Source: an uncultured Pelagibacteraceae bacterium (GTDB taxonomy: Bacteria > Pseudomonadota > Alphaproteobacteria > Pelagibacterales > Pelagibacteraceae). From it: 37,631 bases of DNA. A program made the position numbers and the translations under genes. Numbering within the stretch: position 1 is the stretch's first letter; each line of letters opens with the position of its first letter. The notes beneath the pieces are model-generated. The model made no database searches. It worked only from the letters and a program-made list of their open reading frames with translations, and was not told the origin of the DNA. Below are positions 790 to 36,534 of the stretch, piece after piece. The stretch lies in NCBI GenBank assembly GCA_902589795.1, contig CACIUJ010000005.1:10001-47631 (forward strand). The letters run 5' to 3'.

Positions 790-802
790 TAATTTTTTAT
801 AT

Positions 803-1525: not shown

Positions 1526-1526
1526 A

Positions 1527-3303: not shown

Positions 3304-3816
3304 ATTTCTAACTTTTTTTAATAATTCTTCAGACAATTTATTTAAAGGTTTTGTAAATTTATTCTCGATTATAATATCTGGCGATACAGGCAACTCAGCT
3401 TTTAAATTTTTCCCCACTATATTTTTGAAGTTTCCCTTATAAAAGAATTTATTTTTCTTTTTAATAATTTCGTTAATATCTGATTTTATATAAATTTCTA
3501 CATAATTATTGATATTGGCCCTGTTCCATTTTCTAACTTTGTGAAAAAGACTTACTGTAGAAAAAATCAAATTTATATTTTCATCTATAATACGTTTACA
3601 AAATTTACTGTAACTTAAAGCATAATTTAATCTCTGTTTTTTTGAAAACTTATTAAAATTAAATATTTTTCGAAGATCATCTCCACTAAGGGTTAAAGTT
3701 GGCCCATATTTTTTAGAAATTTGTATCTTTATTTTTTCAGCAATTGTTGTTTTCCCCGAGCCTGATAATCCAGTAATCCAAAACAAGAAGCCTTTATTTT
3801 TTATTATTTTTTTCAT
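3295..3816 (-). CDS. Adenylylsulfate-kinase-like P-loop kinase
   Basis: Small P-loop kinase, 173 residues, resembling CysC (APS kinase). Walker A is GLSGSGKTT at 16-24, preceded by the hydrophobic strand FLFWIT. The segment LSGDDLRKIF at 43-52 matches the LDGDNVR region of APS kinases. The downstream part has diverged: the usual SPYRxDRxxAR lid region reads SLFHKVRKWNRAN (89-101), and the later motifs seen in true APS kinases are not evident. In capsule clusters of other bacteria, CysC homologues phosphorylate nucleotide-linked phosphoramidate or other small groups instead of APS. The position next to a glycan locus, divergent from its regulator, suggests a similar tailoring role, but this is inference. 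The gene is transcribed away from the glycan operon and collides with the DMT transporter at its 3' end. Confidence 0.75.
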   Translation of the reverse strand: MKKIIKNKGFLFWITGLSGSGKTTIAEKIKIQISKKYGPTLTLSGDDLRKIFNFNKFSKKQRLNYALSYSKFCKRIIDENINLIFSTVSLFHKVRKWNRANINNYVEIYIKSDINEIIKKKNKFFYKGNFKNIVGKNLKAELPVSPDIIIENKFTKPLNKLSEELLKKVRNLN

Positions 3817-3918: not shown

Positions 3919-3933
3919 GTTCAATAATTGAAC
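3919..3933. promoter_or_regulatory. Operator-like inverted repeat 2 (GTTCAAT-A-ATTGAAC)
   Basis: Perfect 7-bp arms around one central base, covering the expected transcription start of the regulator gene. It differs from repeat 1 only in the centre (TAA instead of AAA). Binding here would block initiation. The 3' end of the repeat stops 6 bases before the preferred start codon. Confidence 0.6.
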
Positions 3934-3939
3934 ATATTT

Positions 3940-4239
3940 ATGAATGATAATCAAGACCATTTTAACGTACTTAGAAAGATAAATAATAAGCCAAAGTCTA
4001 CCCAAAGAGAGCTTGCGGAAGAGTTGGGGTTTAGTTTGGGAAAATTAAACTACTGTTTGAAAGCTCTAAAAGGTAAAGGCTTAATCAAAATGAAAAATTT
4101 TGAAAAAAATCCAAATAAAATAAATTATATATATGTTCTTACACCAAGAGGAATCACCGCAAAAACTAAGCTGACAATAAATTTTATGAAAAGAAAAATG
4201 AAGGAATATGACGAGTTAAAAAAAGAGATTAAAGGTTAG
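3940..4239 (+). CDS. MarR-family transcriptional regulator, EPS-associated type
   Basis: Winged-helix DNA-binding protein of 99 residues. A helix-turn-helix lies at about 20-43 (STQRELAEELGFSLGKLNYC), followed by the recognition-helix end KALKGKGLIK, a wing at about 51-70 ending in LTPRGI, and a charged C-terminal helix at 75-99 that would form the dimer. This pattern is that of the short MarR proteins linked to exopolysaccharide loci (TIGR04176-like). A TTG start at 3928 would add four residues but lies inside operator 2 and only about 4 bases from the predicted transcription start, so the ATG at 3940 is preferred. The stop is 2 bp before the NusG paralogue, so the two are co-transcribed. 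It probably represses its own promoter through the two palindromes upstream; the inducer is unknown. Confidence 0.87.
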   Translation: MNDNQDHFNVLRKINNKPKSTQRELAEELGFSLGKLNYCLKALKGKGLIKMKNFEKNPNKINYIYVLTPRGITAKTKLTINFMKRKMKEYDELKKEIKG

Positions 4240-4241
4240 TT

Positions 4242-4742
4242 ATGTGGGTAGTAGCTAAAATTAAGATAAAAAATTTCAATACTTTTAAACAAGAATTAAG
4301 AAAAAAAATAGGTAAGGATATTAAATTTTATTATCCAAAGATCGAATATCATAAATATTTTGGTGACAAGGTTAAAAGATTTGAGAAACATATTTTAGAA
4401 AATTATATATTTTGCTACCATATAAAATTTTCAAAATCTGAATTTGTCAATGAAATTAGATTTGTAAGAGGTCTAGAATATTTTTTAGAGGGACACTATC
4501 AAAATCAAAAGGATATTGTAAAATTTGTAGATTACTGCAAAATATTTGAAGATGAAAAAGGATATTTAACCCAAAATTTTTTTAAAACAATTATATCGAA
4601 AAAAGCAAAATTCATATCAGGCCCATTTACTAATGTAATTTTCGAGATTATAGAAAGACAAAAAAACAAGTTAAAAATTTTAGTTGGAAATATTGTTACG
4701 ACGATACCAAATAAAACAAATTATTTATATCGTCCTATCTAA
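4242..4742 (+). CDS. Specialised NusG paralogue (RfaH/LoaP-like antitermination factor)
   Basis: 166 residues with the two-domain layout of NusG. An N-terminal domain at about 1-100 starts MWVVAKIKIKNFNTF (the W-x-V-V strand that opens NusG domains), continues with FYYPKIEYHKYFGDKVKR and NYIFCYHIKF, and has VRGLEYFLEGH at 76-85. A KOW-type domain runs from about 122 to 166, beginning FISGPFTNVIFEI. Proteins of this kind ride on RNA polymerase and suppress termination and pausing in long operons for capsule, LPS or polyketide synthesis. Its place, 2 bp after the MarR gene and directly before a 32-kb co-directional gene run, supports that role here. It is shorter and more lysine-rich than housekeeping NusG (about 180 residues). 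The assignment is from motif pattern only, not from an alignment. Confidence 0.8.
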   Translation: MWVVAKIKIKNFNTFKQELRKKIGKDIKFYYPKIEYHKYFGDKVKRFEKHILENYIFCYHIKFSKSEFVNEIRFVRGLEYFLEGHYQNQKDIVKFVDYCKIFEDEKGYLTQNFFKTIISKKAKFISGPFTNVIFEIIERQKNKLKILVGNIVTTIPNKTNYLYRPI

Positions 4743-5583: not shown

Positions 5584-6576
5584 ATGATTTCTTTAGTTAC
5601 AGGCGGCGCAGGTTTTATTGGTAGTAATTTAGTAACCGAGTTAGTTAAATTAAAGCATAAAGTTATTGTGTTAGATAATTTAAGTACTGGAAAATTAACT
5701 AATTTAAAGCAAATTAAAAAAAAAATAAAATTTATAAATGTCGATATTTCAAAAAATCAAAAATCTATTAATAAGTATTTTAAAAAGGTAGATTGGGTGT
5801 TTCATCTAGCAGGTTTAGCAGATATTGTTCCCAGCATAACAAATCCAAATAATTATTTTGAAGCAAATGTTAAAGGCACTTTAAATGTTTTAGAAGCCGC
5901 TAAAAAAAATAATGTAAAAAAGTTTATTTATGCAGCTTCCGCCAGCTGCTATGGTGTTCCAGAAAAGTATCCAACTGATGAAAAAAATAAAATTGATACA
6001 AAATATCCTTATGCCCTCACTAAATTTTTAGGAGAACAATTAGTTATTCATTGGGCAAAAATTTATAATATGCCAAATGTTTCACTTAGATTCTTTAACG
6101 CGTATGGGCCAAATTCAAGAACAACAGGTGCATATGGAGCAGTATTCGGAGTTTTTTTAGCGCAAAAACTCGCAGGCAAACCATTGACAATTGTAGGTAA
6201 TGGAGAACAAACAAGAGATTTTATTCATGTGTTTGATTTAGTTGATGCTGTTATTTTGGCTGCAAAAAAAGGAAAAAATTCTGAAATCTATAATATTGGA
6301 AGCGGAAAAGAAGTTTCTGTTAATTACATAGCTAAAATAATTGGTGGAAATACAGTTAATATTCCTAAAAGACCTGGTGAGCCCGATAGATCTTTAGCCG
6401 AAATATCAAAGATCAAATCCCATTTAGATTGGTCACCAAAAATCTCAATCGATAAAGGCGTAAGTATGCTGATAAAAATTATTGATCAGTGGAAAGATGC
6501 TCCGGTTTGGACTCCAAAAAGTATTGAAAGAGTAACAGAGAATTGGTTTAGGTATTTAGCCAAAGATAAAAATTAA
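5584..6576 (+). CDS. NAD-dependent nucleotide-sugar epimerase/dehydratase (extended SDR), UDP-glucose 4-epimerase-like
   Basis: 330-residue extended short-chain dehydrogenase. The dinucleotide-binding glycine motif is GGAGFIGS at 7-14, the catalytic Y-x3-K is Y143-K147 (YALTK), and the serine position falls in AASASCYG at 117-124. The C-terminal half shows the usual sugar-binding features RFFNAYGPN and the GNGEQTRDFIHV segment. Overall pattern is that of UDP-glucose or UDP-GlcNAc 4-epimerases, but 4,6-dehydratases and other epimerases share these motifs, so the substrate is not fixed. It starts directly at the end of the LicD-like stop and is followed 12 bp later by the HldE-like enzyme. It probably feeds an activated sugar to module A. 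Confidence 0.88.
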   Translation: MISLVTGGAGFIGSNLVTELVKLKHKVIVLDNLSTGKLTNLKQIKKKIKFINVDISKNQKSINKYFKKVDWVFHLAGLADIVPSITNPNNYFEANVKGTLNVLEAAKKNNVKKFIYAASASCYGVPEKYPTDEKNKIDTKYPYALTKFLGEQLVIHWAKIYNMPNVSLRFFNAYGPNSRTTGAYGAVFGVFLAQKLAGKPLTIVGNGEQTRDFIHVFDLVDAVILAAKKGKNSEIYNIGSGKEVSVNYIAKIIGGNTVNIPKRPGEPDRSLAEISKIKSHLDWSPKISIDKGVSMLIKIIDQWKDAPVWTPKSIERVTENWFRYLAKDKN

Positions 6577-6588
6577 TAAATTTTAGCG

Positions 6589-8115
6589 ATGTCAAAAAAT
6601 AAAATATTATCTTTAGAAAACTTAAAAAAAATAACTAACAGAGAAAAAACAAAAGGAAAAAAGATAGTTCTCTGCCACGGTACTTTTGATCTTCTTCATA
6701 TCGGACATATTAAACACTTCGAAGAAGCAAAAAAGATGGCAGACAAACTAATCGTAACAGTTACCCCTGATGTGTATGTAAATAAGGGACCTAAGCGACC
6801 CTTTTTTAAAGAAAAACATAGGCTAGAAGCCATCGCCGCATTAGATGTTGTAGATTTTGTAGCTTTAAATGAATATCCTACAGCAGTAAATACCATTAAA
6901 AAATTAAAGCCAAACTATTATTGCAAAGGCCCAGACTATCAAAATTATAAAAATGATATTTCAGGTGAAATATTAAATGAAATAAATGCAACTAAAAAGT
7001 CAGGCGGAAAAGTAGTTTATACCAAAGATATTACATTTAGTTCTAGCAGACTAATAAATTCATTTATTAGCACCCAATCATCGTCACAAAAAATGTTATT
7101 TAATAAAATAAAAAAAAAATATAATTTTTCAAAGATAAGAAACTTGGTAGAGTCAATTAAGAAAATTAAAGTTCTTGTTATTGGTGAAGTAATCATTGAC
7201 CAATATTTTTTTTGTGAAGCAATAGGTAAGTCAGGAAAAGAACCAGTTTTAGCCTTAAAAGATATAAAAAATGAACACTATCTAGGAGGAGCCGGGGCCA
7301 TATGTAGGCATATATCCTCTTTTTGTAATAAAATTACTTTATTAAGTATGGTTGGAGAAAAGGGGGAATTTATTAAAGATATAAAAAAAAGCCTACCTAA
7401 AAATGTGAAATTTAATTTTATAAAGAAAGAGAACTCACCAACAATAATTAAAAAAAGATTTTTGGATAATATTAGTTATAACAAAATGTTAGGAGTATAT
7501 TCTTTGAATGACGATCTTTTAACGAAAAAAGATGAAAAAAAGTTTATTAAATTATTAAAAAAATTAATATCAAATCACGATCTAGTAATAACATCAGATT
7601 ATGGTCATGGGCTAATTTCAAAAAACAGCGCAAAATTAATTTCGAAATATTCAAAATACTTGGCACTTAATGCCCAAATAAATGCAGCAAATATTGGATA
7701 TCATAGTATGCGAAACTATAAAAATGTTGATTGTGTTATCATAAACGAAAATGAAATTAAACATGAACTACGAGATAAGAATAGTAGTACAAAATTCTTG
7801 ATGAAGAAATTATCTTCCTCTCAAAAGATTAATAATCTAGTCGTTACAAGAGGAATTCGTGGAGCGCTACTATATAATAGAATAAAAAATAAATTTACAG
7901 CATGTGAGGCATTTGCTGATAATGCCGTTGACAAAATTGGCGCAGGAGATGCTCTGCTATCAATTATTGCTTTATTTTTTAAAAAGGGATTGACAAATGA
8001 ATTGTCCTTACTCGCAGGTTCATTAGCGGCCGCACAATCAGCCGAAACTATAGGAAACAAAGAATCTGTAAATAAAACAAAAATTTTAAAAACTTTAGAA
8101 CATATATTGAAGTAA
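6589..8115 (+). CDS. HldE-like bifunctional sugar nucleotidyltransferase-kinase with reversed domain order
   Basis: 508 residues. The N-terminal part (about 25-155) is a cytidylyltransferase-fold domain with CHGTFDLLHIGH at 29-40 carrying the H-x-G-H catalytic motif, and a FSSSRLI motif near its end. The C-terminal part (about 190-505) is a PfkB/ribokinase domain beginning KVLVIGEVIIDQYFF, with GGAGAICRH in the substrate region and the catalytic GAGD at 451-454. In HldE of enteric bacteria the kinase is first and the nucleotidyltransferase last, so the order is swapped here. HldE makes ADP-heptose from heptose 7-phosphate; this protein may phosphorylate and activate a heptose or a similar sugar. 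Both active sites look intact. An A10 tract at 7110-7119 falls in the linker. Confidence 0.85.
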   Translation: MSKNKILSLENLKKITNREKTKGKKIVLCHGTFDLLHIGHIKHFEEAKKMADKLIVTVTPDVYVNKGPKRPFFKEKHRLEAIAALDVVDFVALNEYPTAVNTIKKLKPNYYCKGPDYQNYKNDISGEILNEINATKKSGGKVVYTKDITFSSSRLINSFISTQSSSQKMLFNKIKKKYNFSKIRNLVESIKKIKVLVIGEVIIDQYFFCEAIGKSGKEPVLALKDIKNEHYLGGAGAICRHISSFCNKITLLSMVGEKGEFIKDIKKSLPKNVKFNFIKKENSPTIIKKRFLDNISYNKMLGVYSLNDDLLTKKDEKKFIKLLKKLISNHDLVITSDYGHGLISKNSAKLISKYSKYLALNAQINAANIGYHSMRNYKNVDCVIINENEIKHELRDKNSSTKFLMKKLSSSQKINNLVVTRGIRGALLYNRIKNKFTACEAFADNAVDKIGAGDALLSIIALFFKKGLTNELSLLAGSLAAAQSAETIGNKESVNKTKILKTLEHILK

Positions 8116-8123
8116 ATTATTTT

Positions 8124-9104
8124 ATGCAAAAAATATTTATTACAGGAGGAGCAGGATATGTTGGCGCAGTATTAACTCCGTATTTAATAAGCAAGGGTTA
8201 TAAAATAACGGTTTATGATTTAATGATTTACGGAAAAGAGGTTTTAAAAGAAGACCCAAATTTAAGTGTAATACAAGGAGACATTAGAGATAAAAAACTA
8301 TTAAGCAAAGTCATGCCAGGCCATGATATTGTCATTCATCTCGCATGCATTTCTAATGATCCAAGTTTTGAACTTAACCCCGAATTAGGAAAATTAATTA
8401 ATCTTGATGCCTTCGAACCTTTAGTGGAAATTGCGAAAAAGAGTTCAATTAAAAGGTTTATATATGCTTCAACTTCGTCAGTTTACGGAATAAAAGCTGA
8501 ATCAGATGTAAATGAAAATATGTCTTTGGAGCCTTTGACTGATTATTCAAGATATAAGGCTGATTGTGAAAAAACACTTAATAGACATGTATCAGAAAAC
8601 TTTGTTCCAATAATAATAAGACCAGCGACAGTTTGCGGATATTCTCCAAGACAAAGATTAGATCTTGTTGTAAATATTTTAACAAATTTAGCCTACCACA
8701 AAAGATCCATCAGTGTTTTTGGTGGAAAGCAATTAAGACCAAATATTCATATAGAGGATATGGTAAGGGCTTACCAAGTCTTGATCGAGGCTCCAAAGTC
8801 CAAGGTGTCTGGAGAGATATTTAATGTTGGGTATGAAAACCACTCTGTTTTAGAATTAGCAAACACAGTAAAAAAAAATATTGGCGAAGATGTTAAATTA
8901 GAATCTATACCTACTAATGATAACCGCTCATATCATATTTCTTCAAAAAAAATAAAAAACGTCTTAAAATTTGACGCTCTAAAAACTATTTCTGATGCTG
9001 TGACAGATCTAAAGATAGCATTTGAAAAAGGCTTATTGCCAAATTCGATGACTGATGAAAAATATTTTAATATTAAAAGGATGCAGTCACTTAAGCTAAA
9101 GTAA
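8124..9104 (+). CDS. NAD-dependent epimerase/dehydratase (extended SDR)
   Basis: 326 residues. Glycine motif GGAGYVG at 8-14, an acidic residue at the end of the second strand (VYDLMIYG), and the catalytic Y141-K145 in YSRYK with STSSVYG at 116-122. The segment LACISNDPSFELNP at 73-86 is a hallmark of an SDR subgroup often found in LPS and capsule loci beside transketolase-like or heptose genes, though I cannot give its substrate. It lies 8 bp after the HldE-like gene and 18 bp before the split transketolase, which suggests it works on the sugar nucleotide the HldE-like enzyme makes. A 4-epimerase or 3,5-type epimerase reaction is possible; the sequence alone does not decide. Confidence 0.85.
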   Translation: MQKIFITGGAGYVGAVLTPYLISKGYKITVYDLMIYGKEVLKEDPNLSVIQGDIRDKKLLSKVMPGHDIVIHLACISNDPSFELNPELGKLINLDAFEPLVEIAKKSSIKRFIYASTSSVYGIKAESDVNENMSLEPLTDYSRYKADCEKTLNRHVSENFVPIIIRPATVCGYSPRQRLDLVVNILTNLAYHKRSISVFGGKQLRPNIHIEDMVRAYQVLIEAPKSKVSGEIFNVGYENHSVLELANTVKKNIGEDVKLESIPTNDNRSYHISSKKIKNVLKFDALKTISDAVTDLKIAFEKGLLPNSMTDEKYFNIKRMQSLKLK

Positions 9105-9122
9105 AGATAAAATATTACTTGT

Positions 9123-9875
9123 ATGAATTATAAAACTTTAATCAAAAAAGCAAAAGAATTAAGACAAGAAACTTTTCTTGCTTTTATAAAAAAAGGAGAA
9201 GCTCACCTCGGGGGTAGTTTTTCAATAATTGAAATATTACTTACACTTTATGAAGTAATAATAAAAAAAAATGATAAATTTATTCTTAGTAAATCTCACG
9301 CTTCATTTCCATTATGTTTGTTATTAAAGAAAAAAGGTTTAAACCCCTCCCTCACAACTCATTTAGAACTTGATGCTAAAAATGGAATATATTGCACAAC
9401 GGGAAGTTTGGGACACGGACTTCCTATTGCAACAGGAATGGCATTTGCTAGAAAAAAAAGAAAAATTTCTGGAAAAATTTATGTAATGATTAGTGACGGA
9501 GAATGCCAAGAAGGAACTACATGGGAGTCATTGTTGATAGCTTCTAAACATAAATTAGATAATCTTATAGTTTTAGTTGATTATAATAAAATTCAAGCAT
9601 TATCACGATTAAATGATGCATTGCCTCTTAAAAATCTTTCTAAAAAATTTAAAGCTTTTAATTGGAAATGCATAAATGTTAAAGATGGACATTCATTTAA
9701 ATCACTAATTTCATCATTTAAAAAAATAAAAAAAAATGCAAAACCTATAGCAATAATAATTAATACTATTAAAGGAAAAGGTATAAAAGAATTTGAAGAT
9801 GATCCGATATGGCATGCTAGAAAGCTTCAAGGAAAAGAAATGGAAATAGGAAAGAAAAAATTGGGAATTTTATGA
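9123..9875 (+). CDS. Transketolase-like N-terminal subunit (ThDP-binding)
   Basis: 250 residues, the pyrophosphate (PP) domain of a split transketolase. The thiamine diphosphate motif starts SDGECQEG at 124-131 (G-D-G in most relatives, here S-D-G) and closes at LVDYNKIQ about 25 residues later, as expected. Other family segments are GEAHLGGSFS near 25-34, SKSHAS at 56-61 and GSLGHGLP at 94-101. Its stop overlaps the next gene by 4 bp (ATGA), which carries the partner pyrimidine domain. In glycan loci such split pairs are thought to transfer a two-carbon unit and form or cleave a ketose or branched sugar, unlike the full-length central-metabolism enzyme. The substrate here is unknown. Confidence 0.88.
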   Translation: MNYKTLIKKAKELRQETFLAFIKKGEAHLGGSFSIIEILLTLYEVIIKKNDKFILSKSHASFPLCLLLKKKGLNPSLTTHLELDAKNGIYCTTGSLGHGLPIATGMAFARKKRKISGKIYVMISDGECQEGTTWESLLIASKHKLDNLIVLVDYNKIQALSRLNDALPLKNLSKKFKAFNWKCINVKDGHSFKSLISSFKKIKKNAKPIAIIINTIKGKGIKEFEDDPIWHARKLQGKEMEIGKKKLGIL

Positions 9876-10363
9876 GAAGAAGATTTGGTAAAGTCATTAA
9901 TGAATTAGCAAAAAAAGATGACAAAGTTATATTGATCGTTGGTGATATTGGTTACGGTGTTTTTGATGATTTTAGAAAAGAACATCCCAAAAAATTTTTT
10001 AATCTAGGCATTTGTGAGCAAAGCATAATAAGCTTCGCATCAGGAGCTGCTTTAGAAGGTTTAAAGCCCTGGGTGTATACTATTACCCCATTTCTAATTG
10101 AGAGACCATTTGAGCAAGTAAAGCTTGATATAGACCAACAGAATGTAAATGTAAATCTTGTGGGTTTTGCAGATTATCCTACGTTAGGCCCAAGCCATGC
10201 AGAACTGGATGCTGAAAAACTTATGAAGCTATTCAAAAATATTAAATCTTTCTTTCCTAAAAACGGCGAAGAAACAGAGAAGGCTATTTATGAGAGCTAT
10301 AAAAGAAGCGGACCAAATTTTATAAGCTTAAAAAGCGATGTAACGATTGGAAAAAATTGGTAA
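9872..10363 (+). CDS. Transketolase-like pyrimidine-domain subunit, short form
   Basis: 163 residues corresponding to the Pyr domain of transketolase. The ThDP-activating glutamate is E49 in NLGICEQS, and the substrate-side segment LGPSHAELD follows at about 109-117. The protein stops right after the last strand of the Pyr domain (PNFISLKSD), so the C-terminal transketolase domain of roughly 120-140 residues found in usual second subunits is absent. No frameshifted remnant is visible in the 22 bp before the next gene, so this looks like a natural short form and not a broken gene. It starts within the stop of its partner (4-bp overlap), implying translational coupling and a heteromeric enzyme. 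Confidence 0.85.
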   Translation: MRRRFGKVINELAKKDDKVILIVGDIGYGVFDDFRKEHPKKFFNLGICEQSIISFASGAALEGLKPWVYTITPFLIERPFEQVKLDIDQQNVNVNLVGFADYPTLGPSHAELDAEKLMKLFKNIKSFFPKNGEETEKAIYESYKRSGPNFISLKSDVTIGKNW

Positions 10364-10385
10364 ATATAAATTGTCATTTTAAATT

Positions 10386-11474
10386 ATGAAAGTACGATTT
10401 AGAGATTTAGCTGTAAAAGATAAAAAATTAAAAGAAGAATTATTAACTGCAGTTAATAAAGTTCTCACACATGGCAAAGTTCTTCTTGGTCCAGAAGTTA
10501 CTGAGTTTGAAGAATTTATCGCCAGAGAATGTGGAACAAAATATTCTGTAGGGGTAGGAAGTGGAACGGATGCATTATATGTTTCTATGAAAGCATTAGG
10601 AATAGGACCGGAGGACGAGGTGATAACAACACCACTATCCTGGATCGCAACCGCAAACTCCATTGTAGCTGTTGGAGCCAAACCAACCTATGTTGACATT
10701 GGACAAGATCTTAATATTGATCCAGATCTAATTGAGAAATCAATAACAAATAAAACAAAAGCGATAATGCCCGTTCACTTTACAGGTCGTATATGCCAAA
10801 TGGATAAAATAAAAAAAATTGCTAAAAAAAATAATTTATTTTTAATTGAGGATGGTGGACAAGCATACGGAGCTAATATTAATGGAAAGATGGCCGGATC
10901 ATTTGGTGACATGGGTTGCTTTAGTATGAATCCGATGAAAATATTTTCTTCATATGGAGAAGCGGGAGTCATTACTGTTAATGACAAAAAACTTAGAGAT
11001 GATCTTGTTTCAGTCAGATATAATGGAACTTTAAACAAAGAAGACTGCCATGTTCCAAGTATAAATGCTAGAATTGATACATTGCATGCCGCAATGCTGA
11101 ATATTAATGCCAAATATCTTAAAAATAAAATAAACAGAACAAGAGAAATATCAAAATATTACGATGACAAATTAAAAAATGTTGTCGAGTGCCCATCAGA
11201 TGATGGAACTTTTCAAACTTATTATTCATATATGATCAAAGTAGAAGATAGAGAATCTTTGACAAGCTATTTAACTGAGAATGAAATAGAAACAAAAATA
11301 CAACACCCTATACTAATGCCATTTCATACAGCCTATAAAAAGTTTTATCCCAACATATCTATTCCCATGTCAGAGAAGCTAATAAAAAAAATATTAAGCA
11401 TACCCAACCACGATAAAATGACTGATCAGCAAGTTGAATATGTTGCTGACAAAATATATAATTACTACAAATGA
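10386..11474 (+). CDS. DegT/DnrJ/EryC1/StrS-family PLP-dependent sugar aminotransferase (module A)
   Basis: 362 residues, normal for the family. The PLP-binding lysine is K185 in FSMNPMKIFSSYGEAG, and IEDGGQAYG at 154-162 supplies the aspartate that contacts the pyridine nitrogen. The substrate-side segment GSGTDALYVS at 58-67 is typical. These enzymes convert a keto-sugar nucleotide into an amino sugar with glutamate as donor. Its closest relatives cannot be named by eye. The local base composition is higher in G+C than in module C: the 60-base line 10561-10620 has 27 G or C by hand count. Its stop overlaps the next start by 4 bp. Context suggests it aminates the product of the SDR and transketolase-like enzymes upstream. 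Confidence 0.9.
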   Translation: MKVRFRDLAVKDKKLKEELLTAVNKVLTHGKVLLGPEVTEFEEFIARECGTKYSVGVGSGTDALYVSMKALGIGPEDEVITTPLSWIATANSIVAVGAKPTYVDIGQDLNIDPDLIEKSITNKTKAIMPVHFTGRICQMDKIKKIAKKNNLFLIEDGGQAYGANINGKMAGSFGDMGCFSMNPMKIFSSYGEAGVITVNDKKLRDDLVSVRYNGTLNKEDCHVPSINARIDTLHAAMLNINAKYLKNKINRTREISKYYDDKLKNVVECPSDDGTFQTYYSYMIKVEDRESLTSYLTENEIETKIQHPILMPFHTAYKKFYPNISIPMSEKLIKKILSIPNHDKMTDQQVEYVADKIYNYYK

Positions 11475-13501
11475 AAAGAAAAATAAAAATAATGTTAGCT
11501 GATTTAACGCATACAGGCGTAAATCTAAATTCAGATCATTTTCCCTTAGGCATAGGTTTCATAGCCTCGTATACTTTAAAAGTTCTCAAGGATGAAGCTG
11601 AAATTTCTTTGCACAAATTGCCAGAAGAACTTCTTGAAGAACTTCCAAAAGTTAAACCAGATTTTCTTTGTTTTAGTTCGTATAATTGGAATGCAAAACT
11701 AAGCAATATTATTGCCTCATATGCCAAAGAGATAAATCCAAATGTCACTACAATATTCGGTGGACCTGATTTTCCTGTTGGAAATGAAGCTCGTCATAAT
11801 TTTTTAAAAAAACGACCTGTTATAGATTTTTATATTAAATCAGATGCAGAATATGCTTTTGTAAGATTAATAAAAAAAATGATGGATTTTAATTTAAATT
11901 TAAAAGAATTTAAGAAAAACTATATTAAGCTTCCTAACATATGTTATGTGGAAGGCGATCATTATATAGAAGGTCCATACGAAAGAGTAGAGAACATTAT
12001 GGATATTCCTTCCCCTTATGTTAATGGATTGTTAGATAAATTTTTTGAGCTTCCGTTAAAACCAAATATTCAGACAAATAGGGGCTGCCCTTATTCATGC
12101 ACTTTTTGTTGTGATGGAGAAATTTCAAACAGAAAAATTCATAGAAAAAGTGATGCTTATATGCGTGAAGAATTAGAATATATTGCAAAACATGTGAAAC
12201 TAACCCCAACTCTTGGATTTTCTGATCTTAATTTTGGAATGTACAAACAAGATCTCGAGACCGCAAAAGCTATTAGAGATATTAGAAAAAAATATAATTG
12301 GCCTATTCAAATGGAAGGCTCAACCGGAAAAGCCCAACCAGAAAGATTGGCTGAGGTAGGGAAAATAATTAATGAAGGAGGAATAGATATAATAAGGATG
12401 GGTTCATCAATGCAATCAGTCAGTACAGACGTTCTTAAAGAGATAAAAAGAACAAATTTAGACTTTGAGTCACTTCGTGAACTTCATCACAACAATGTTG
12501 ATAGCCAAAATTTTACAGAGTTTATAATTCCACTTCCAAAAGAAACGAAAAAGTCATTTTTAAGCGGATTAACTAAAGTTGTAGATGATATTAGATTTAA
12601 TAACATTGCTGTGCATCATCTACAATTATTAAAGGGTTCCGAGTTAGAAACTCATGCACAAAGATCAAAATATGATATGAAAACTAAGTATAGAGTCTAC
12701 GAGGCGTGTCTAGGAAACTATAAAATCGGAAACAAAAAAGTTCCAATTGCAGAAATTGAGGAAATTGTGGTTGGTACAAATACAATGAGTCCGGAGGAAT
12801 ATTATGATCTTACAGTCGTAACTCTATTAATAAAAATTTTCATACATGGAGATACATATAAGCCAATCTTTGAAGTTCTAAGACGAAATAATATTAAAAG
12901 CATGGAGATTATTACACAAATATTAGAGAAATCTAGTAATGAATTTCCAAAATTTAAAACTTTTTTAGAAGACTTTGTTAAAATGGGAAAAAATAAATGT
13001 TTTAACAGCGAGGAGAATCTTGAAAAATATTTAGCAAAACCAAATGTCATTGATAATATAATTAATGGCGAAGGACAAAATGAACTTTTAGCGTTTAGAG
13101 CAAAAGCTCTTAGGAAGCACTATAAGGATTGCACTTTAGTTTTGCAGTCAGCAATTAAAAATATTCTGGATAAGCGAAATCTAAATTCAACTGAACTAAA
13201 TGAATACTTGAATGAAGCATTTAAATTTTGTGAAATTAGAAAGTTTAATTTTGATGATATGAAGGACTGTGAAGCTAACTTCACATTTGATTTTGTTAAG
13301 GGTGACAAAAATAATTTTGATGTAGATCCAAAAGAAATCCAAAATAAAGTAAATATTAAATTTTATTATGTGGATGAAAAAGACACTTTCAATAAATACC
13401 TAAAATTTTATGGTAATTCAAATGACTTTCAATGGGGAAAAATCATTCAAAGAATGGATTGGATAAGAATGAGAAAAAGAATTAAGTATTCCAATGTATG
13501 A
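11471..13501 (+). CDS. Radical SAM protein with N-terminal B12-binding-like domain
   Basis: 676 residues. The N-terminal region (about 1-190) has the layout of a cobalamin-binding domain of the B12-radical SAM type, with FPLGIGFIASY near 24-34 and TIFGGPDFPVG at 94-104, but no D-x-H-x-x-G motif, as is common in this group. The radical SAM core has the cluster cysteines C206, C210 and C213 in RGCPYSCTFC. A long C-terminal region (about 430-676), lysine-rich and without a motif I recognise, follows. Members perform difficult methylations, ring contractions or other radical changes. Its 4-bp overlap with the aminotransferase ties it to the same pathway. Whether it acts on a sugar, a lipid or a peptide cannot be told. 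Confidence 0.85.
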   Translation: MKRKIKIMLADLTHTGVNLNSDHFPLGIGFIASYTLKVLKDEAEISLHKLPEELLEELPKVKPDFLCFSSYNWNAKLSNIIASYAKEINPNVTTIFGGPDFPVGNEARHNFLKKRPVIDFYIKSDAEYAFVRLIKKMMDFNLNLKEFKKNYIKLPNICYVEGDHYIEGPYERVENIMDIPSPYVNGLLDKFFELPLKPNIQTNRGCPYSCTFCCDGEISNRKIHRKSDAYMREELEYIAKHVKLTPTLGFSDLNFGMYKQDLETAKAIRDIRKKYNWPIQMEGSTGKAQPERLAEVGKIINEGGIDIIRMGSSMQSVSTDVLKEIKRTNLDFESLRELHHNNVDSQNFTEFIIPLPKETKKSFLSGLTKVVDDIRFNNIAVHHLQLLKGSELETHAQRSKYDMKTKYRVYEACLGNYKIGNKKVPIAEIEEIVVGTNTMSPEEYYDLTVVTLLIKIFIHGDTYKPIFEVLRRNNIKSMEIITQILEKSSNEFPKFKTFLEDFVKMGKNKCFNSEENLEKYLAKPNVIDNIINGEGQNELLAFRAKALRKHYKDCTLVLQSAIKNILDKRNLNSTELNEYLNEAFKFCEIRKFNFDDMKDCEANFTFDFVKGDKNNFDVDPKEIQNKVNIKFYYVDEKDTFNKYLKFYGNSNDFQWGKIIQRMDWIRMRKRIKYSNV

Positions 13502-13550
13502 TTTTAAAAAGTTTATAAAGTCATTAAATAATATATAAAATAAGGACAAA

Positions 13551-14525
13551 ATGTTGAATTTACAAAAACAGCTAGATTTAATCTCAAAAGAATTATCCGT
13601 AAAGGATATTGATGGAATTGATTATTTTGCACGTTACGTCGAGATGGACGCCTATGATGGATGCAATTTAGATTGTATAATGTGTCCGTTGGGAAAGAGC
13701 ATTTACAAAGGTGGCGGACCTATACCTCAAAAACTTTTTAAAAAGATAGTTGATGAACTGGCCGAATATTCTGATTGGATATACCAGGTTTGCTTATCTA
13801 GAAACGGCGAGCCACTTTTAAATAAAAATATTGCATCAATGATAAAGCAGTTAAAAGATGTAGGAATAAAAAGAGTTAATTTTTCAACAAATGCAACAGC
13901 TTTAACCGAAAAAAAAGCACACGAATTGCTCGAGTCTGGTTTGGACGAGATAAGATTTTCAATTGATGGAGTTACAAAAGAAACTTTTGAGAAAGTAAGA
14001 CAAGGCGTAGAGTACGAGCGAGTATTAAAAAATTGTTTAAAATTTATCGAAATAAGAGAAAAATATAAAGACGCCAAAACCCAAGTACAAATTAGATTTG
14101 TTGAACAAAAGGCAAATAGCCATGAAGTTCAAATGTGGAAAAATTTCTGGTTAACCAAAGTGAGAAAAACTGATGTTGTGGCTTCAAAAAAAATGCATTC
14201 CTGGTCTAATGAATTGGATGGCCTGAAAAATAAAAGCACTGATCCAAAATTTGTTTCAGACCGAAGTAATATTCATCCTTGCATTTCCCCATTCTCCTCA
14301 CTCGAAATATTATATGATGGAACTGTCCCACTTTGTGGCTCTGATTATCTGCGTACCGTGACTTTTGGTAATGTATATAAAAATACTTTAAAAGAAATTT
14401 GGAATAGTAAAGAATTCAAAAAAGTAAGAGATTTACATAAGTCAGGAAATAGAAATCAAATAGATGCTTGCATTGGATGTAAAATTTGGGACAAAGATAT
14501 TAAAACTGTTCATTATAACAAATAA
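13551..14525 (+). CDS. Radical SAM/SPASM domain protein 1
   Basis: 324 residues. The radical SAM cysteines are C38, C42 and C45 in DGCNLDCIMC. The middle contains SRNGEPLLN and NFSTNATAL, usual in the barrel. A C-terminal SPASM domain, which holds extra iron-sulfur clusters, has cysteines in HPCISPF, VPLCGSD and DACIGCKIW, with the GNVYKNTLKEIW motif between. A good Shine-Dalgarno TAAGGA sits at 13541-13546, four bases before the start, and a 49-bp gap precedes it, so it may be translated strongly. SPASM proteins modify peptides or act as dehydrogenases and epimerases on sugars. Being in a glycan locus with a second SPASM protein and a B12-type one points to sugar chemistry, but this is inference. 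Confidence 0.9.
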   Translation: MLNLQKQLDLISKELSVKDIDGIDYFARYVEMDAYDGCNLDCIMCPLGKSIYKGGGPIPQKLFKKIVDELAEYSDWIYQVCLSRNGEPLLNKNIASMIKQLKDVGIKRVNFSTNATALTEKKAHELLESGLDEIRFSIDGVTKETFEKVRQGVEYERVLKNCLKFIEIREKYKDAKTQVQIRFVEQKANSHEVQMWKNFWLTKVRKTDVVASKKMHSWSNELDGLKNKSTDPKFVSDRSNIHPCISPFSSLEILYDGTVPLCGSDYLRTVTFGNVYKNTLKEIWNSKEFKKVRDLHKSGNRNQIDACIGCKIWDKDIKTVHYNK

Positions 14526-14541
14526 TTTTTTTATATTTAAA

Positions 14542-14558
14542 AAATAAATAAATAAATA
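14542..14558. repeat. Short AAAT tandem repeat
   Basis: Four copies of AAAT plus one extra base in the 58-bp gap between the first SPASM protein and the unknown gene. It may be a simple A/T-rich spacer; no promoter boxes with correct spacing are seen around it. Confidence 0.5.
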
Positions 14559-14583
14559 CAATACATTACCCTAGCCAATTATT

Positions 14584-15738
14584 ATGGAAATAGATTTTGA
14601 TAAACTTTTAGAAAATTATAATTCAGAACTTGTCACAAAACTGAGAGGTTTTAATGACGAGCATGATTATTTACAATACTGGGTGCCAGGCTCAGATAAA
14701 GTTAGGAGTTTATTAAATTTAATAGATGCTATTTATGAAACAGGAACAATTAATTTCTCGGTGTTACTATCAAAAAAAGACGAATATATAATTAATGAAA
14801 TAAAAAAAATTTCCAATAACATTGGAAAAGCAGAGGTTAGTCAAAACAAAAATACATTTAAAATTTTGATTTCATTGGATAAATCCAAATATAAATTGTT
14901 TAGTAAAGAACAAACTATTGTTAAAAAAAAATATATACAAAAAAATTCTTCTATCACTACCGAATTAAAGGATGAGAGAAAAGATTACGATATTTTTAAA
15001 GACTATGAAGCGAATTTAAGTAGTTATAAATTAGTTTCAAATTATAACAAAAAGCCTATTGATGAAAGTGTGTTTTTTGAATTTGTTAATAAAAATAAAA
15101 AATTATTCATCAAAATAAATAAAGATACACAAAAAGTAGTTGAGAGTTGGCATGATTTTAATCAGATTGATAACCAAGCGATTGTTGTTGATAAATTTTG
15201 TCAAATCATTTTGAACAAAACCATACAAGAAGCATCTGAGCACGGGATTATTTATTTAGAACATTCTTTAAGACCATTAGGTATAAGACAAAAAATAAAA
15301 GGCATAATATTGCCAAAAAAAGCAGGTGGAATTTTTTTTGATTTACACCAATGTATTAATAAAATTTATATAAAGATAAAAGAAAAATTTCATTTTAATG
15401 ATGTAATTAATAAGGAATATTTTGATTTATCAGAAAATTGGTTAAAAAATACCTATGAGCAAAAACTGAATAAATTAAGAAAAGTTTTATCAGAGAAAAT
15501 AATACCTTCATTACAACTAAAACAAAACGATATTATTATTGAAGCAATCGAGATAGATACTAAAATTGTTATTAAAACTAGCGATGATTTTCTAAAAAAA
15601 AACTCAGGTAAAAAGAATTATTTGATTATAATTGAGGATTTATTTAAGCAATTTGTTGATAAACGATTAGAATTGTTTACTATAGAAAAAAAGGATGACA
15701 ATAGATTGAGACATATAAATTCACCTCAAAAAATTTAA
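14584..15738 (+). CDS. Protein of unknown function between two radical SAM/SPASM genes
   Basis: 384 residues; I do not recognise a family. There is no signal peptide, no membrane segment and no cysteine motif (only two cysteines, both in the second half). The N-terminal segment has aromatic, acidic patterning (HDYLQYWVPGSDK near 27-39). A conserved-looking middle segment, SEHGIIYLEHSLRPLG at about 219-234, is followed by basic IRQKIKGIILPKKAGG. The rest is lysine-rich and helical in appearance. The gene is much poorer in G+C than its flanks: the 60-base line 14881-14940 has 9 G or C. The next gene begins 2 bp after the stop, so the two are probably coupled. A partner, carrier or substrate-binding protein for the SPASM enzyme is a guess. 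Confidence 0.8.
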   Translation: MEIDFDKLLENYNSELVTKLRGFNDEHDYLQYWVPGSDKVRSLLNLIDAIYETGTINFSVLLSKKDEYIINEIKKISNNIGKAEVSQNKNTFKILISLDKSKYKLFSKEQTIVKKKYIQKNSSITTELKDERKDYDIFKDYEANLSSYKLVSNYNKKPIDESVFFEFVNKNKKLFIKINKDTQKVVESWHDFNQIDNQAIVVDKFCQIILNKTIQEASEHGIIYLEHSLRPLGIRQKIKGIILPKKAGGIFFDLHQCINKIYIKIKEKFHFNDVINKEYFDLSENWLKNTYEQKLNKLRKVLSEKIIPSLQLKQNDIIIEAIEIDTKIVIKTSDDFLKKNSGKKNYLIIIEDLFKQFVDKRLELFTIEKKDDNRLRHINSPQKI

Positions 15739-15740
15739 AT

Positions 15741-16865
15741 ATGAAAGAACATCAGGAATTAATTTTAGACGGAACAAAAATAAACTGGCATTTGGATAGA
15801 GTTAGTAAGTGGGAGAATGGCGAAAGAATAGCTCCGATAACTATCGATATGGCCTTAACAAGAGCATGTAATTATTCATGTGGATTTTGTTACGCAATGT
15901 TTCAGGAAAACGACAGAAAAATAATTACACAAAAAATAATTTTTGATTTTTTAGAGGACTGTGCAGAAATAGGTGTAAAAGGAATAAGTTTTGTTTCAGA
16001 TGGAGAAAGTACAATTTCACCAGTTTTTATTGACGCATGCAAAAAAGGCTATGAGTTGGGTTTATCAATGGCAGTAGGAACCAATGCATTTGTATTAACA
16101 AAAAATAGATTAGAAGAAGTTCTTCCTTATTTAACTTACTTAAGGGTCAACTTTTCAGCTGGCGAAAGAAAAAGATATTCAGAGATCATGGGTGTAAAGG
16201 AGACTGCTTTTGACAGAGTTTGTCAAAACATAAAAGATATGGTTGCAATTAAAAAAAGAGATAATTTGCCTGTTACAATTGGAATGCAAATGGTTCTTAT
16301 GCCTCAAGATGGGGATCAAATTATCCCTTTGGCCAAACTTGGAAAAGAACTAAGACCGGACTATGTAATTATTAAACATTGCACAGATAATGAAGATGGT
16401 GGCCTTGGTATTGATTACAATGCTTATGAAAAACTTTATCCTCTATTAAAAGAAGCTGAAAATTATTCAGATAGTGATTATAAAGTTGTAATTAAATGGT
16501 CAAAAATTAAAGACAAAGGTAATAGTGGAAGAAGTTATCAAAGATGTTATGGAGCTCCGTTTATGTTACAACTGTCAGGAACAGGTCTCGTTGCTCCTTG
16601 TGGCGCCCTATTTAATGAAAAATATAAAAAATTCCATATAGGTAATATATGTGATCAAAGATTCAAAGACATTTGGAAATCTGATAAATATTGGGAGGTA
16701 ATGAATTATCTTGCCTCTCCTAAATTTAATGCACAAAAAATGTGTGCATCTTTATGTTTACAGCATAAAGTAAACGAAGCTTTAGACGCTCATGTTAAAG
16801 GTAAAGCTACACTAAAACTTAAACAAACAAACAAGACAAAGCCCCAACATATAAACTTTGTTTAA
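15741..16865 (+). CDS. Radical SAM/SPASM domain protein 2
   Basis: 374 residues. The radical SAM cysteines are C43, C47 and C50 in RACNYSCGFC. The barrel segment VSDGESTISP matches the usual GGEPxxxP region with a changed first residue. The SPASM part has cysteines in RCYGAPF, APCGALF, GNICDQRF and KMCASLCLQH. It differs clearly from the first SPASM protein and from the B12-type one, so the three are not recent copies of one another. It starts 2 bp after the unknown gene. It is the last gene of module A; a 33-bp gap follows. Substrate unknown: family members include peptide-modifying enzymes and sugar or aminocyclitol dehydrogenases. Confidence 0.9.
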   Translation: MKEHQELILDGTKINWHLDRVSKWENGERIAPITIDMALTRACNYSCGFCYAMFQENDRKIITQKIIFDFLEDCAEIGVKGISFVSDGESTISPVFIDACKKGYELGLSMAVGTNAFVLTKNRLEEVLPYLTYLRVNFSAGERKRYSEIMGVKETAFDRVCQNIKDMVAIKKRDNLPVTIGMQMVLMPQDGDQIIPLAKLGKELRPDYVIIKHCTDNEDGGLGIDYNAYEKLYPLLKEAENYSDSDYKVVIKWSKIKDKGNSGRSYQRCYGAPFMLQLSGTGLVAPCGALFNEKYKKFHIGNICDQRFKDIWKSDKYWEVMNYLASPKFNAQKMCASLCLQHKVNEALDAHVKGKATLKLKQTNKTKPQHINFV

Positions 16866-16898: not shown

Positions 16899-18194
16899 AT
16901 GAAACTACTTAGATTTCTTTCAAAACAATTTCTTGATGTTAAGAAAAATGGAACAAAAGAGCTTTTAAAAAAAATAAAGATATTTTTAATTTTTTTACTT
17001 ATTTCACCATTTCATATTTTATTTTTTATTGTCGCTTTACCAATTGTAATTTTCATTCGAATTATTAAACCTTTTCTTCATATTCGATTTCGTACAATTT
17101 CAACAGGAAGAATTGGTCATTTTGCAGATGATGCTGGCATAATACTAAGCGAGACCGTACTTAAACAAAACAATATTAAAGATTGGTATTGGTTACAAAA
17201 ACCTACTTGTAACCATCAATTAGAAAAAATGGTAGAAAGGGCTTTTTATGTACGTTGGTGGGTAAAGTATTTATATACTACAAATAAAATTATTCCTGGA
17301 GGTAAACAACATACATTAGAAACTCCAAGTATAACTCAATCAGCAAGGGATATAAATGGTCTCTTGTACAAAAGTAAAGGAATAAAAAAAGCATACCTTA
17401 GTTTTTCCGAACAAGAGCAAGCTGATGCAAAAAAGTATTTAAAAAGTATTGGCCTAAACGATAACGATAAGTTTGTTTGTCTAAATGTACGAGACTCGTC
17501 CTATTTAAATCATCTTTATCCAAAAGTAGATTGGAATTATCACAATTTTAGAGACTCAGATATAAATACTTATGCATTAGCAGCAGAAGCATTAGCAGAA
17601 AAAGATTATTGGGTATTTAGAACAGGCAAAGTAGTTTCAAAACCATTTAATTGTAAACATCCAAAAGTAATTGATTACGCTACGAGTGATAGAAAAAGCG
17701 ATCTTCTTGATATTTGGCTTATGGCAAATTGCTCGTTTTCTATATCAACAGGCTCAGGATTAGATTCGATACCTGTAATTTTTAGACGACCTATTTTATT
17801 TTTAAATTTTTTACCAATCAATGAAGTCGTTACTTATGCTGCTTCACTAACATATTTTAAACATCTTAAATGGAAGAATAAAAATAAATTACTTAATTTT
17901 AAAGAATGCCTGGAAAATAGCCACTATGAATATAATGAATATGCCAGAAATGGTGTTGAGATAATAGATATGTCACCAAGTGAGATGAAAAGTGCGGTAC
18001 TCGAAATGGTGGATCGTATAAGCGGCAAGTGGATTGATAAGACAGAAGATATTAAATTACAGAATAGTTTTTGGCACACTTACAAAAAATGTGAAAATTT
18101 TAGAAAAAACCACAGTTTTATAAACCCTAGTGCTAAAATAAGTTCAGCTTTTTTACATTCAAGTTTTAAACCTGTGCAATTTCAAAGACTATAA
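16899..18194 (+). CDS. TIGR04372-type putative glycosyltransferase
   Basis: 431 residues. A strong hydrophobic segment at about 27-54 would anchor the protein in the inner membrane with the bulk in the cytoplasm. The body matches the pattern I associate with TIGR04372 proteins: an early ISTGRIGHFADDAG segment, VCLNVRDSSYLNH in the middle, and SISTGSGLDSIPVIFRRP near the C-terminal end, where a G-S-G loop would bind the sugar nucleotide. It most likely transfers a sugar to a lipid-linked glycan. It opens module B and is followed 18 bp later by another possible transferase. Donor and acceptor are unknown. The family call is from recall of motif order, not from a profile search. Confidence 0.75.
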   Translation: MKLLRFLSKQFLDVKKNGTKELLKKIKIFLIFLLISPFHILFFIVALPIVIFIRIIKPFLHIRFRTISTGRIGHFADDAGIILSETVLKQNNIKDWYWLQKPTCNHQLEKMVERAFYVRWWVKYLYTTNKIIPGGKQHTLETPSITQSARDINGLLYKSKGIKKAYLSFSEQEQADAKKYLKSIGLNDNDKFVCLNVRDSSYLNHLYPKVDWNYHNFRDSDINTYALAAEALAEKDYWVFRTGKVVSKPFNCKHPKVIDYATSDRKSDLLDIWLMANCSFSISTGSGLDSIPVIFRRPILFLNFLPINEVVTYAASLTYFKHLKWKNKNKLLNFKECLENSHYEYNEYARNGVEIIDMSPSEMKSAVLEMVDRISGKWIDKTEDIKLQNSFWHTYKKCENFRKNHSFINPSAKISSAFLHSSFKPVQFQRL

Positions 18195-22984: not shown

Positions 22985-24154
22985 ATGAATAAAATTTCAA
23001 AAAAAATTGTAAAAATATTTAAAAAAAAAATTAAACTAAATAAAGTTTATTTGCATGAACCTGATTTAAATAAAAGTGATTCAGTTTATCTAAAAGATTG
23101 TATTAATCAAAACGCTGTTTCAGCAGCTGGAAAATTTATTCAAAAATTTGAAAATAAAATTTTAAATTTAACAAAAGCGAAATGTGTCATATCTACTAAC
23201 TCAGGGACTTCAGCATTACATATTTCCTGTATTTTAATGAATGTTAAAGAAAATGACGAAGTTCTTGTTCCCGCATTTACTTTTGTAGCAACAGCAAATG
23301 CGATAAAATATTGTGGTGCAATACCACATTTTATAGATATAGAAGAAAATCATTTTGGTGTTAATGTTAATAAGTTAGACAATTATCTTAAAGAAATTTC
23401 AATAAAAAAAGGAAACTTTTGTTTTAATAAAAAAACTGGAAGAAAAATAAAAGCTATAATGCCGGTTCATGTTTTTGGACACTTCATGAAAATAAACGAG
23501 CTTATTAAACTAGCTAAAAAATACAATTTATCAATCATTGAGGATGCAGCTGAAGCTATAGGTAGTTATTACAAAAATAAACATGCGGGAACGTTTGGAC
23601 ATATCGGGGTTTTAAGTTTTAATGGTAACAAAACTATCACATGTGGTGCAGGAGGCGCTATTTTGACGAACAATAAGAAAGTAGCGCAAAAGGCTAGGCA
23701 TTTAATTGCTACTGCAAAAATTGCTCATCCTTATAATTATATTCATGATGAGGTTGGATTTAACTATAGAATGGCTAATTTAAATGCGGCCCTAGGTTAC
23801 TCTCAAATAAAAAGAATAAAAAAAATATTAAAAAAAAAGAGAAAATTATTTAATTTTTACGACAAGATATTTAAAGGAAATATATATTTTAAATTAATTA
23901 ATGAACCAAAAAAAAGCAAAAGCAATTTTTGGTTACAAACTATTTTAATAAACGAAAAATATTCAAAATTTACTAAAAAAATAATTGAAGATCTAAATGA
24001 TAAAAAAATCTATGTAAGGCCTGGTTGGGAATTAATGAATAATTTAAAACACTTCAAAAATTGTCCTAAAATGGATTTATCAATAGCTAAAAGAATTTGT
24101 AAAAGAATTATAAATATTCCAAGCAGTTCTTTTTTAGAAAGATACATTAAATGA
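22985..24154 (+). CDS. legC: LegC/PglE-like PLP-dependent sugar aminotransferase (module C)
   Basis: 389 residues of the DegT family. The PLP lysine is K216 in SFNGNKTITCGAGG, and IEDAAEAIGS at 185-194 provides the aspartate. The segments LHEPDL (23-28), VPAFTFVATANAIKYCGAIP (95-114) and the inserted stretch before KAIMPVHVFGH follow the LegC subgroup, which aminates C4 of a UDP-4-keto-6-deoxy-GlcNAc in legionaminic acid and bacillosamine synthesis. The dehydratase that would make that keto-sugar (LegB or PglF) is not in the window. Its ATG is preceded by a very A-rich leader, and its stop overlaps the dehydrogenase start by 4 bp. Subgroup assignment is from motif recall, so pseudaminic-type or other roles remain possible. 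Confidence 0.82.
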   Translation: MNKISKKIVKIFKKKIKLNKVYLHEPDLNKSDSVYLKDCINQNAVSAAGKFIQKFENKILNLTKAKCVISTNSGTSALHISCILMNVKENDEVLVPAFTFVATANAIKYCGAIPHFIDIEENHFGVNVNKLDNYLKEISIKKGNFCFNKKTGRKIKAIMPVHVFGHFMKINELIKLAKKYNLSIIEDAAEAIGSYYKNKHAGTFGHIGVLSFNGNKTITCGAGGAILTNNKKVAQKARHLIATAKIAHPYNYIHDEVGFNYRMANLNAALGYSQIKRIKKILKKKRKLFNFYDKIFKGNIYFKLINEPKKSKSNFWLQTILINEKYSKFTKKIIEDLNDKKIYVRPGWELMNNLKHFKNCPKMDLSIAKRICKRIINIPSSSFLERYIK

Positions 24155-26519: not shown

Positions 26520-26537
26520 TTTATACTTTTTAAAAAT

Positions 26538-30210: not shown

Positions 30211-30223
30211 TAGTTCTAAATTT

Positions 30224-30910: not shown

Positions 30911-30913
30911 ATT

Positions 30914-32074: not shown

Positions 32075-32079
32075 ACATT

Positions 32080-33936: not shown

Positions 33937-33940
33937 GAAA

Positions 33941-34603: not shown

Positions 34604-34633
34604 AATATTAAGTAGTTAAATCAATCTAATAAA

Positions 34634-35338: not shown

Positions 35339-35341
35339 ATT

Positions 35342-36514: not shown

Positions 36515-36534
36515 AATAGTTATATAAAATTCAA

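Follow-up and report, generated by a model that had tools for sequence, protein, structure and literature searches.

Of the nine superfamilies of ThDP-dependent enzymes, only three (decarboxylase, αKADH2 and transketolase) are known to work on ketone acceptors, giving branched sugars (PMC12247030). The pathways described include those of YerE, ErwE and JanthE, the αKADH2 enzymes of aldgamycin and kibdelomycin, and the split transketolases of miharamycin and amipurimycin; a role in branching is still unproven for transketolases, the split genes of Streptomycetes being listed as candidates (PMC12247030). The words ‘radical’ and ‘heptose’ do not occur in the text of that article. Two further systems bear on the locus described here: BtrN of butirosin, a radical SAM dehydrogenase that acts on an aminocyclitol alcohol and has an auxiliary cluster with four cysteine ligands (PMC9012708), and the ADP-heptose pathway of HldE, GmhA and GmhB.

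Here, a radical enzyme and a thiamine enzyme are paired, probably to build an unusual carbon-branched sugar; we found no such combination described in the open literature. The locus lies in a 37,631-nucleotide stretch (‘the window’), part of a 47.6-kb contig from an incomplete, 826-kb genome whose nearest relatives, judged by the defining enzyme spasmB, are Pelagibacteraceae (SAR11). Its genes form one run on the plus strand, with intergenic gaps of −4 to 58 bp (2 bp between the gene for a 384-residue protein and spasmB):

5584..6576, plus strand: sdr1, an NAD-dependent epimerase/dehydratase-type SDR, a module gene in bacteria (Pfam Epimerase, 2.6e-63)
6589..8115, plus strand: HldE-like bifunctional enzyme, core; nucleotidyltransferase then PfkB kinase, the reversed order (Pfam CTP_transf_like and PfkB)
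8124..9104, plus strand: sdr2, the second module SDR (Pfam Epimerase, 6.3e-40)
9123..9875, plus strand: tktN, N-terminal half of a split transketolase, ThDP slot (Pfam Transketolase_N)
9872..10363, plus strand: tktC, pyrimidine-domain half of the split transketolase (Pfam Transket_pyr)
10386..11474, plus strand: DegT-family sugar aminotransferase, accessory (Pfam DegT_DnrJ_EryC1, 3.3e-91)
11471..13501, plus strand: B12-binding radical SAM enzyme, predicted C-methyltransferase, accessory (Pfam B12-binding, just under cut-off, and Radical_SAM)
13551..14525, plus strand: spasmA, a twitch-type radical SAM enzyme, accessory (Pfam Radical_SAM and SPASM)
14584..15738, plus strand: 384-residue partner of spasmB, core (no Pfam match)
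15741..16865, plus strand: spasmB, a twitch-type radical SAM enzyme, the defining core enzyme (Pfam Radical_SAM and SPASM)
16899..18194, plus strand: TIGR04372-family glycosyltransferase, probable user of an activated sugar (TIGR04372, 3.5e-65)

The initial annotation had described three radical SAM proteins within 5.4 kb, in a run with a sugar aminotransferase and a 384-residue unknown, together with a reversed HldE-like enzyme, two SDRs and a short transketolase; all are present, the transketolase being split over two ORFs. It could match the set to no described pathway, and our own search of open papers found none that describes a radical SAM enzyme with a heptose/O-antigen, phage or thiamine branched-sugar module.

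A search with spasmB among 247 genomes of the order returned full-length relatives (at least 39% identity) in seven other genomes, around which sdr1, hldE, sdr2, ThDP enzyme and DegT genes recur, joined in several by that for the 384-residue protein. Homologues of sdr1 (50–60% identical) adjoin hldE/spasmB in most SAR11 relatives, those of sdr2 (48–64%) lie in SAR11 module loci, and homologues of the TIGR04372-family glycosyltransferase adjoin the module in other loci. A scan of ∼85,000 species genomes gave 123 spasmB relatives, the 80 used for locus counts coming from Alpha-, Beta- and Gammaproteobacteria, Campylobacterota, Myxococcota, Elusimicrobiota, Omnitrophota, Marinimicrobia, Planctomycetota and others; IMG/VR viral contigs hold another 47. 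Counting neighbours within 8 kb of spasmB at loci with enough flank (62 bacterial, from the 80 of 123, and 37 viral, related loci not being independent of one another), we find a ThDP enzyme at 51/62 bacterial and 34/37 viral loci, HldE at 44/62 and 31/37, and a GmhA-like isomerase at 20/62 and 17/37; an SDR is present at 46/62 and 4/37, and DegT at 44/62 (often in two copies) and 7/37. A small control, the neighbourhoods of nine homologues of the B12 enzyme in other SAR11 genomes, gave hldE at 0/9, a ThDP enzyme at 2/9 and the partner at 0/9.

The core is formed by the reversed HldE-like enzyme, the ThDP enzyme, spasmB and the 384-residue protein; SDRs and DegT are usual in bacteria and a GmhA-like isomerase is often found. 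The coherent module claimed by the initial annotation stands in so far as HldE, SDR, transketolase, aminotransferase and radical SAM genes recur together elsewhere, across phyla and in phages, and cluster more than expected by chance. Its choice of the three radical SAM proteins as the unit does not stand: a spasmA relative lies near spasmB at 2/62 bacterial loci and full-length B12 homologues at three, and with both so rare beside spasmB a three-enzyme system was rejected. It had also missed that the transketolase slot is filled elsewhere by E1αβ or YerE-like enzymes, that the unknown is a partner protein, and that the module occurs in phages. The gene set is well supported and appears to represent a real, widespread variant of branched-sugar biosynthesis, apparently undescribed in the open literature; the reactions themselves we infer from it.

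All three radical SAM enzymes of the window carry CxxxCxxC (from C206 in the B12 enzyme, C38 in spasmA and C43 in spasmB), the motif being present in 124/124 rows of the spasmB alignment. The four auxiliary cysteines of spasmB (C269-X17-C287-X47-C335-X3-C339) are kept in 91–93% of these rows, and those of spasmA (C244-X17-C262-X44-C307-X2-C310) have spacing identical to BtrN's (C-X17-C-X44-C-X2-C, counted from the HMMER alignment). Both enzymes show the BtrN-type ‘twitch’ pattern, exact in spasmA and similar in spasmB; that is, a CxxxCxxC core plus one auxiliary cluster by cysteine pattern, and the label ‘SPASM-type’ initially given to them is better replaced by that of the truncated twitch type. 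The PDB matches of spasmB include BtrN and DesII, although overall similarity to BtrN is low (profile E ∼1e-4), and spasmB differs in its greater length and in having a partner protein of its own. At nine bacterial loci, all of one clade, spasmB is without the auxiliary cysteines, a loss that is hard to square with auxiliary-cluster-dependent oxidation in that clade. These loci (L178–L186) have the same module and offer a natural test of the cluster's role. A second, divergent (25–28%) spasmB-type radical SAM gene is also seen within some modules (L171:5893–6987; also L192, L196 and L198).

For the partner, an AF2 model built on three sequences had too low a confidence to use (pLDDT 54) and was superseded by one from a 25-row alignment (pLDDT 80, pTM 0.49); these scores give more trust to the individual domains than to the way they are arranged. 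This model comprises an N-terminal alpha/beta domain, an IscU-like fold (residues 139–274) and a small NFU-like C-terminal domain (285–373); as predicted, the second superposes on IscU with a Z of 10.0 over 120 residues and the third on the C-terminal domain of NFU1 with a Z of 8.5. The top PDB matches of its sequence profile are NifU/IscU, at weak E-values of 0.018–0.31, and for residues 1–120 there was no established match to a known fold, only weak Alba-like rows. Predicted fold and NFU-like domain are shared with the IscU/NifU scaffolds; the partner, however, is tied to one radical SAM gene and is without conserved cysteine ligands, no invariant or nearly invariant cysteine being found in 25 sequences.

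A profile search over ORFs from 45 aa places the partner's C-terminal domain beside spasmB at 71/80 bacterial (80 of 123) and 36/47 viral loci; an 80-aa ORF minimum had given only 3/37 viral. In phages and one bacterial clade this domain stands alone as a short ORF, mostly of 62–115 aa, before spasmB, and in many bacteria it is fused to the IscU-like domain as a long form. All nine loci with spasmB lacking the auxiliary cysteines have the short form, and in the 48 rows with a long-form partner spasmB keeps most or all of them; since the nine fall in one clade, the association counts as a single event and carries no statistical weight.

In the ThDP slot stands the split transketolase in the window and in genome G022, an acetolactate-synthase-like enzyme of ∼578 aa in G194, G240 and L107–L112, and an E1αβ pair in G117, G195, G191, L114, L119 and most others; all three types occur inside a single 11-row SAR11 clade of spasmB (SH-aLRT 99). 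The best PDB match of tktN, which is 72% identical to its G022 counterpart, is the N component of a split-chain transketolase (1.6e-31), and tktC keeps the catalytic-Glu motif GIxEQ at 46, with identities of 75% in G022 and 56% in phage contig L227. The E1β of G117 is PDH-like, and the 578-aa enzyme best matches 5ahk, then 8rph, the latter being the YerE-like JanthE (PMC12188165). With no E2-like ORF in 127 loci (query, the E2 of the same genome), membership of E1 in a 2-oxoacid dehydrogenase complex is unlikely and was set aside. The slot draws on three superfamilies, decarboxylase, αKADH2 and transketolase, the same ones as in the described branched-sugar pathways (PMC12247030), and in both cases sugar genes, DegT and SDR lie around and no E2 nearby; the module differs in that the three types alternate within one HldE/radical SAM module with heptose-type activation. 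On viral contig L227 (6235–11914), HldE, a second spasmB paralogue (27%), a split transketolase, a spasmB relative (35%) and an SDR stand in a row, as in SAR11 G022.

Taking these observations together, we favour, with moderate confidence, the reading of 5584–16865 as a module for a nucleotide-activated, carbon-branched, heptose-type cell-surface sugar, formed via a ketone made by spasmB and a ThDP-dependent branch; substrate, spasmB role, order of steps and product are what we infer from the genes. An activated heptose or similar sugar would arise through a GmhA-like isomerase, a GmhB-like phosphatase and the HldE-like kinase/nucleotidyltransferase, and the SDRs may epimerise or reduce it. 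Acting with its partner, spasmB would then oxidise a sugar alcohol to the ketone in the manner of BtrN, and the ThDP enzyme (here the split transketolase) would place a two-carbon unit, in the window probably hydroxyacetyl, on that ketone, with DegT aminating after the branching. The B12 enzyme would C-methylate the sugar, and spasmA might carry out another radical oxidation, or a step akin to it. Keto sugars can also arise through SDRs of this kind, so spasmB need not be the ketone maker, and the split transketolase could instead produce a ketose phosphate. To our knowledge, no sugar structure has been reported from any carrier of the module; the cultured Azospirillum oryzae and Nisaea denitrificans are among the carriers.

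The individual enzymes fit this scheme to differing degrees. The HldE-like enzyme matches HldE (PRK11316) at 1.2e-51 and keeps the catalytic motifs of its nucleotidyltransferase and kinase domains (HxGH at 37 and GAGD at 451); it is not canonical, its domain order being reversed and its 175.8 bits falling under the curated NCBIfam cut-off of 521. GmhA-like and GmhB-like genes are found elsewhere in the genome, away from the module, with modest scores against curated families (the GmhB-like gene under its cut-off). Homologues of the kinase, nucleotidyltransferase, isomerase and phosphatase of the ADP-heptose pathway are thus available in modules or genome, set apart from it by the reversed HldE domains and by scores under curated cut-offs. 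DegT keeps its lysine motif (FSMNPMK, at 179), its best NCBIfam match being PseC-like and under cut-off. KedN5, TokK and CysS methylate unreactive carbons; the B12 enzyme shares with them a B12-binding domain followed by a radical SAM domain, with significant similarity over ∼380–400 residues (PDB matches TokK, 1.6e-42, and CysS, 1.3e-35), which fits the C-methyltransferase function initially suggested. Its context is a sugar locus, whereas theirs are enediyne, carbapenem and cystobactamid, and because it scores 156.4 bits (8.5e-46) against the NF033712 cut-off of 700 we treat it as a relative and not a member of the KedN5 family. Full-length homologues occur in only three other module loci (L151, L157 and L159), with transketolase pairs likewise present in two of these; that of L159 is 32% identical over 625 residues, an apparent 67% match there being an artefact over 15 residues.

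The order of events might be inverted, with the ThDP enzyme acting first to give an unusual ketose or deoxyketose phosphate, GmhA-like and HldE enzymes activating a linear higher-carbon sugar, and spasmB entering later. Ketose phosphates are the normal products of transketolases and the substrates of GmhA-like isomerases, which as counted above stand at 20/62 bacterial (from 80 of 123) and 17/37 viral loci; yet sugar pathways with branching at a ketone are a known setting for the E1αβ and YerE-like enzymes that take the transketolase's place in close modules (PMC12247030), and transfer from pyruvate would give a 1-deoxyketose, which GmhA-type chemistry could not isomerise at C1–C2. We regard this order as unlikely. 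We give somewhat less credence to a DesII-like ammonia-lyase, in which DegT would add an amino group for spasmB to remove and the resulting deoxy-keto sugar would pass to the ThDP enzyme or a second DegT: DesII is among the (weak) PDB matches of spasmB and rSAM_desII among its NCBIfam matches, and DegT genes, often two, accompany 44/62 bacterial loci (from 80 of 123), but only 7/37 viral modules have one nearby and the auxiliary-cluster cysteines of spasmB resemble those of BtrN, an oxidising enzyme.

It is more doubtful still that spasmB and the small partner modify a peptide or mature a metalloprotein, in RiPP-like or W-cofactor maturase-like fashion unrelated to sugar. A 62–115 aa ORF directly 5′ of a radical SAM gene does look like a RiPP pair, and the best NCBIfam match of spasmB, far under cut-off, is a tungsten-oxidoreductase maturase family. 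The small domain, however, is conserved through its C-terminal DxNKxR tail with no variable core, and on that conservation the RiPP reading was rejected; many bacteria carry the domain joined to an IscU-like one, and sugar-activation genes are neighbours in most loci. Given that there is no variable core, we read the partner from its sequence as a spasmB subunit or chaperone rather than as a modified peptide. A random assortment of unrelated genes, brought together in a hypervariable polysaccharide island of SAR11, is scarcely credible as an explanation of the run. Gene shuffling is a feature of such islands and other sugar genes do lie in the window, but the set is met again in other phyla and in phages, and the co-occurrence counts refute the idea.

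Returning to the ketone-and-branching scheme, its phage form is the leaner one: HldE, a ThDP enzyme and spasmB with its partner, often with GmhA and mostly without SDR or DegT. With the latter two seldom nearby (present at 4/37 and 7/37 loci), spasmB is the candidate ketone maker in phages. The viral sequences include a viral-only spasmB clade (31 rows, SH-aLRT 100), and genes next to viral modules code, among others, for terminase, portal, major head protein, primase, glycosyltransferases and methyltransferases. This makes it probable that the module is old phage cargo serving glycan or virion modification, and its place beside terminase, portal and head genes suggests a glycan modification relevant to phage–host contact. 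Annotated phage records gave just five distant matches, and the lineage is accordingly known here from metagenomic contigs only. More tentatively, and with slightly less than even confidence, we propose that the pathway is a hitherto undescribed one, carried by phages and spread horizontally: spasmB and its small partner (the latter fused in many bacteria to a cysteine-free IscU-like ‘pseudo-scaffold’) would form a two-component twitch radical SAM enzyme that introduces the ketone into an activated heptose, and ThDP enzymes of three superfamilies, used interchangeably, would then branch the sugar. If this is so, radical SAM chemistry and thiamine carboligation would be joined in one sugar pathway, split transketolases, whose branching role is pending (PMC12247030), would gain a testable home, and a cysteine-free IscU-fold protein would gain a function as a radical SAM partner.

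Several features of the flanking DNA may be recorded. Upstream of the module (3928–4742) lie two ORFs, a winged-helix one of 103 aa and one of 166 aa that matches no Pfam family, the latter resembling an RfaH/NusG-type factor by eye only; the G117 module is preceded by a similar pair (L011:1835–2646; 103 and 165 aa, the second 39% identical). Judged from their translations, PhnD/PhnC/PhnE phosphonate-type transporter-like genes occupy the left edge of the window (13–2357), with an APS-kinase-like gene on the minus strand (3295–3816) between them and the module. A further block of sugar genes, at 22985–37293, contains NeuB, NeuC-like, NeuA-like, WbuX amidotransferase and HisF-like genes, as for a nonulosonic-type acid.
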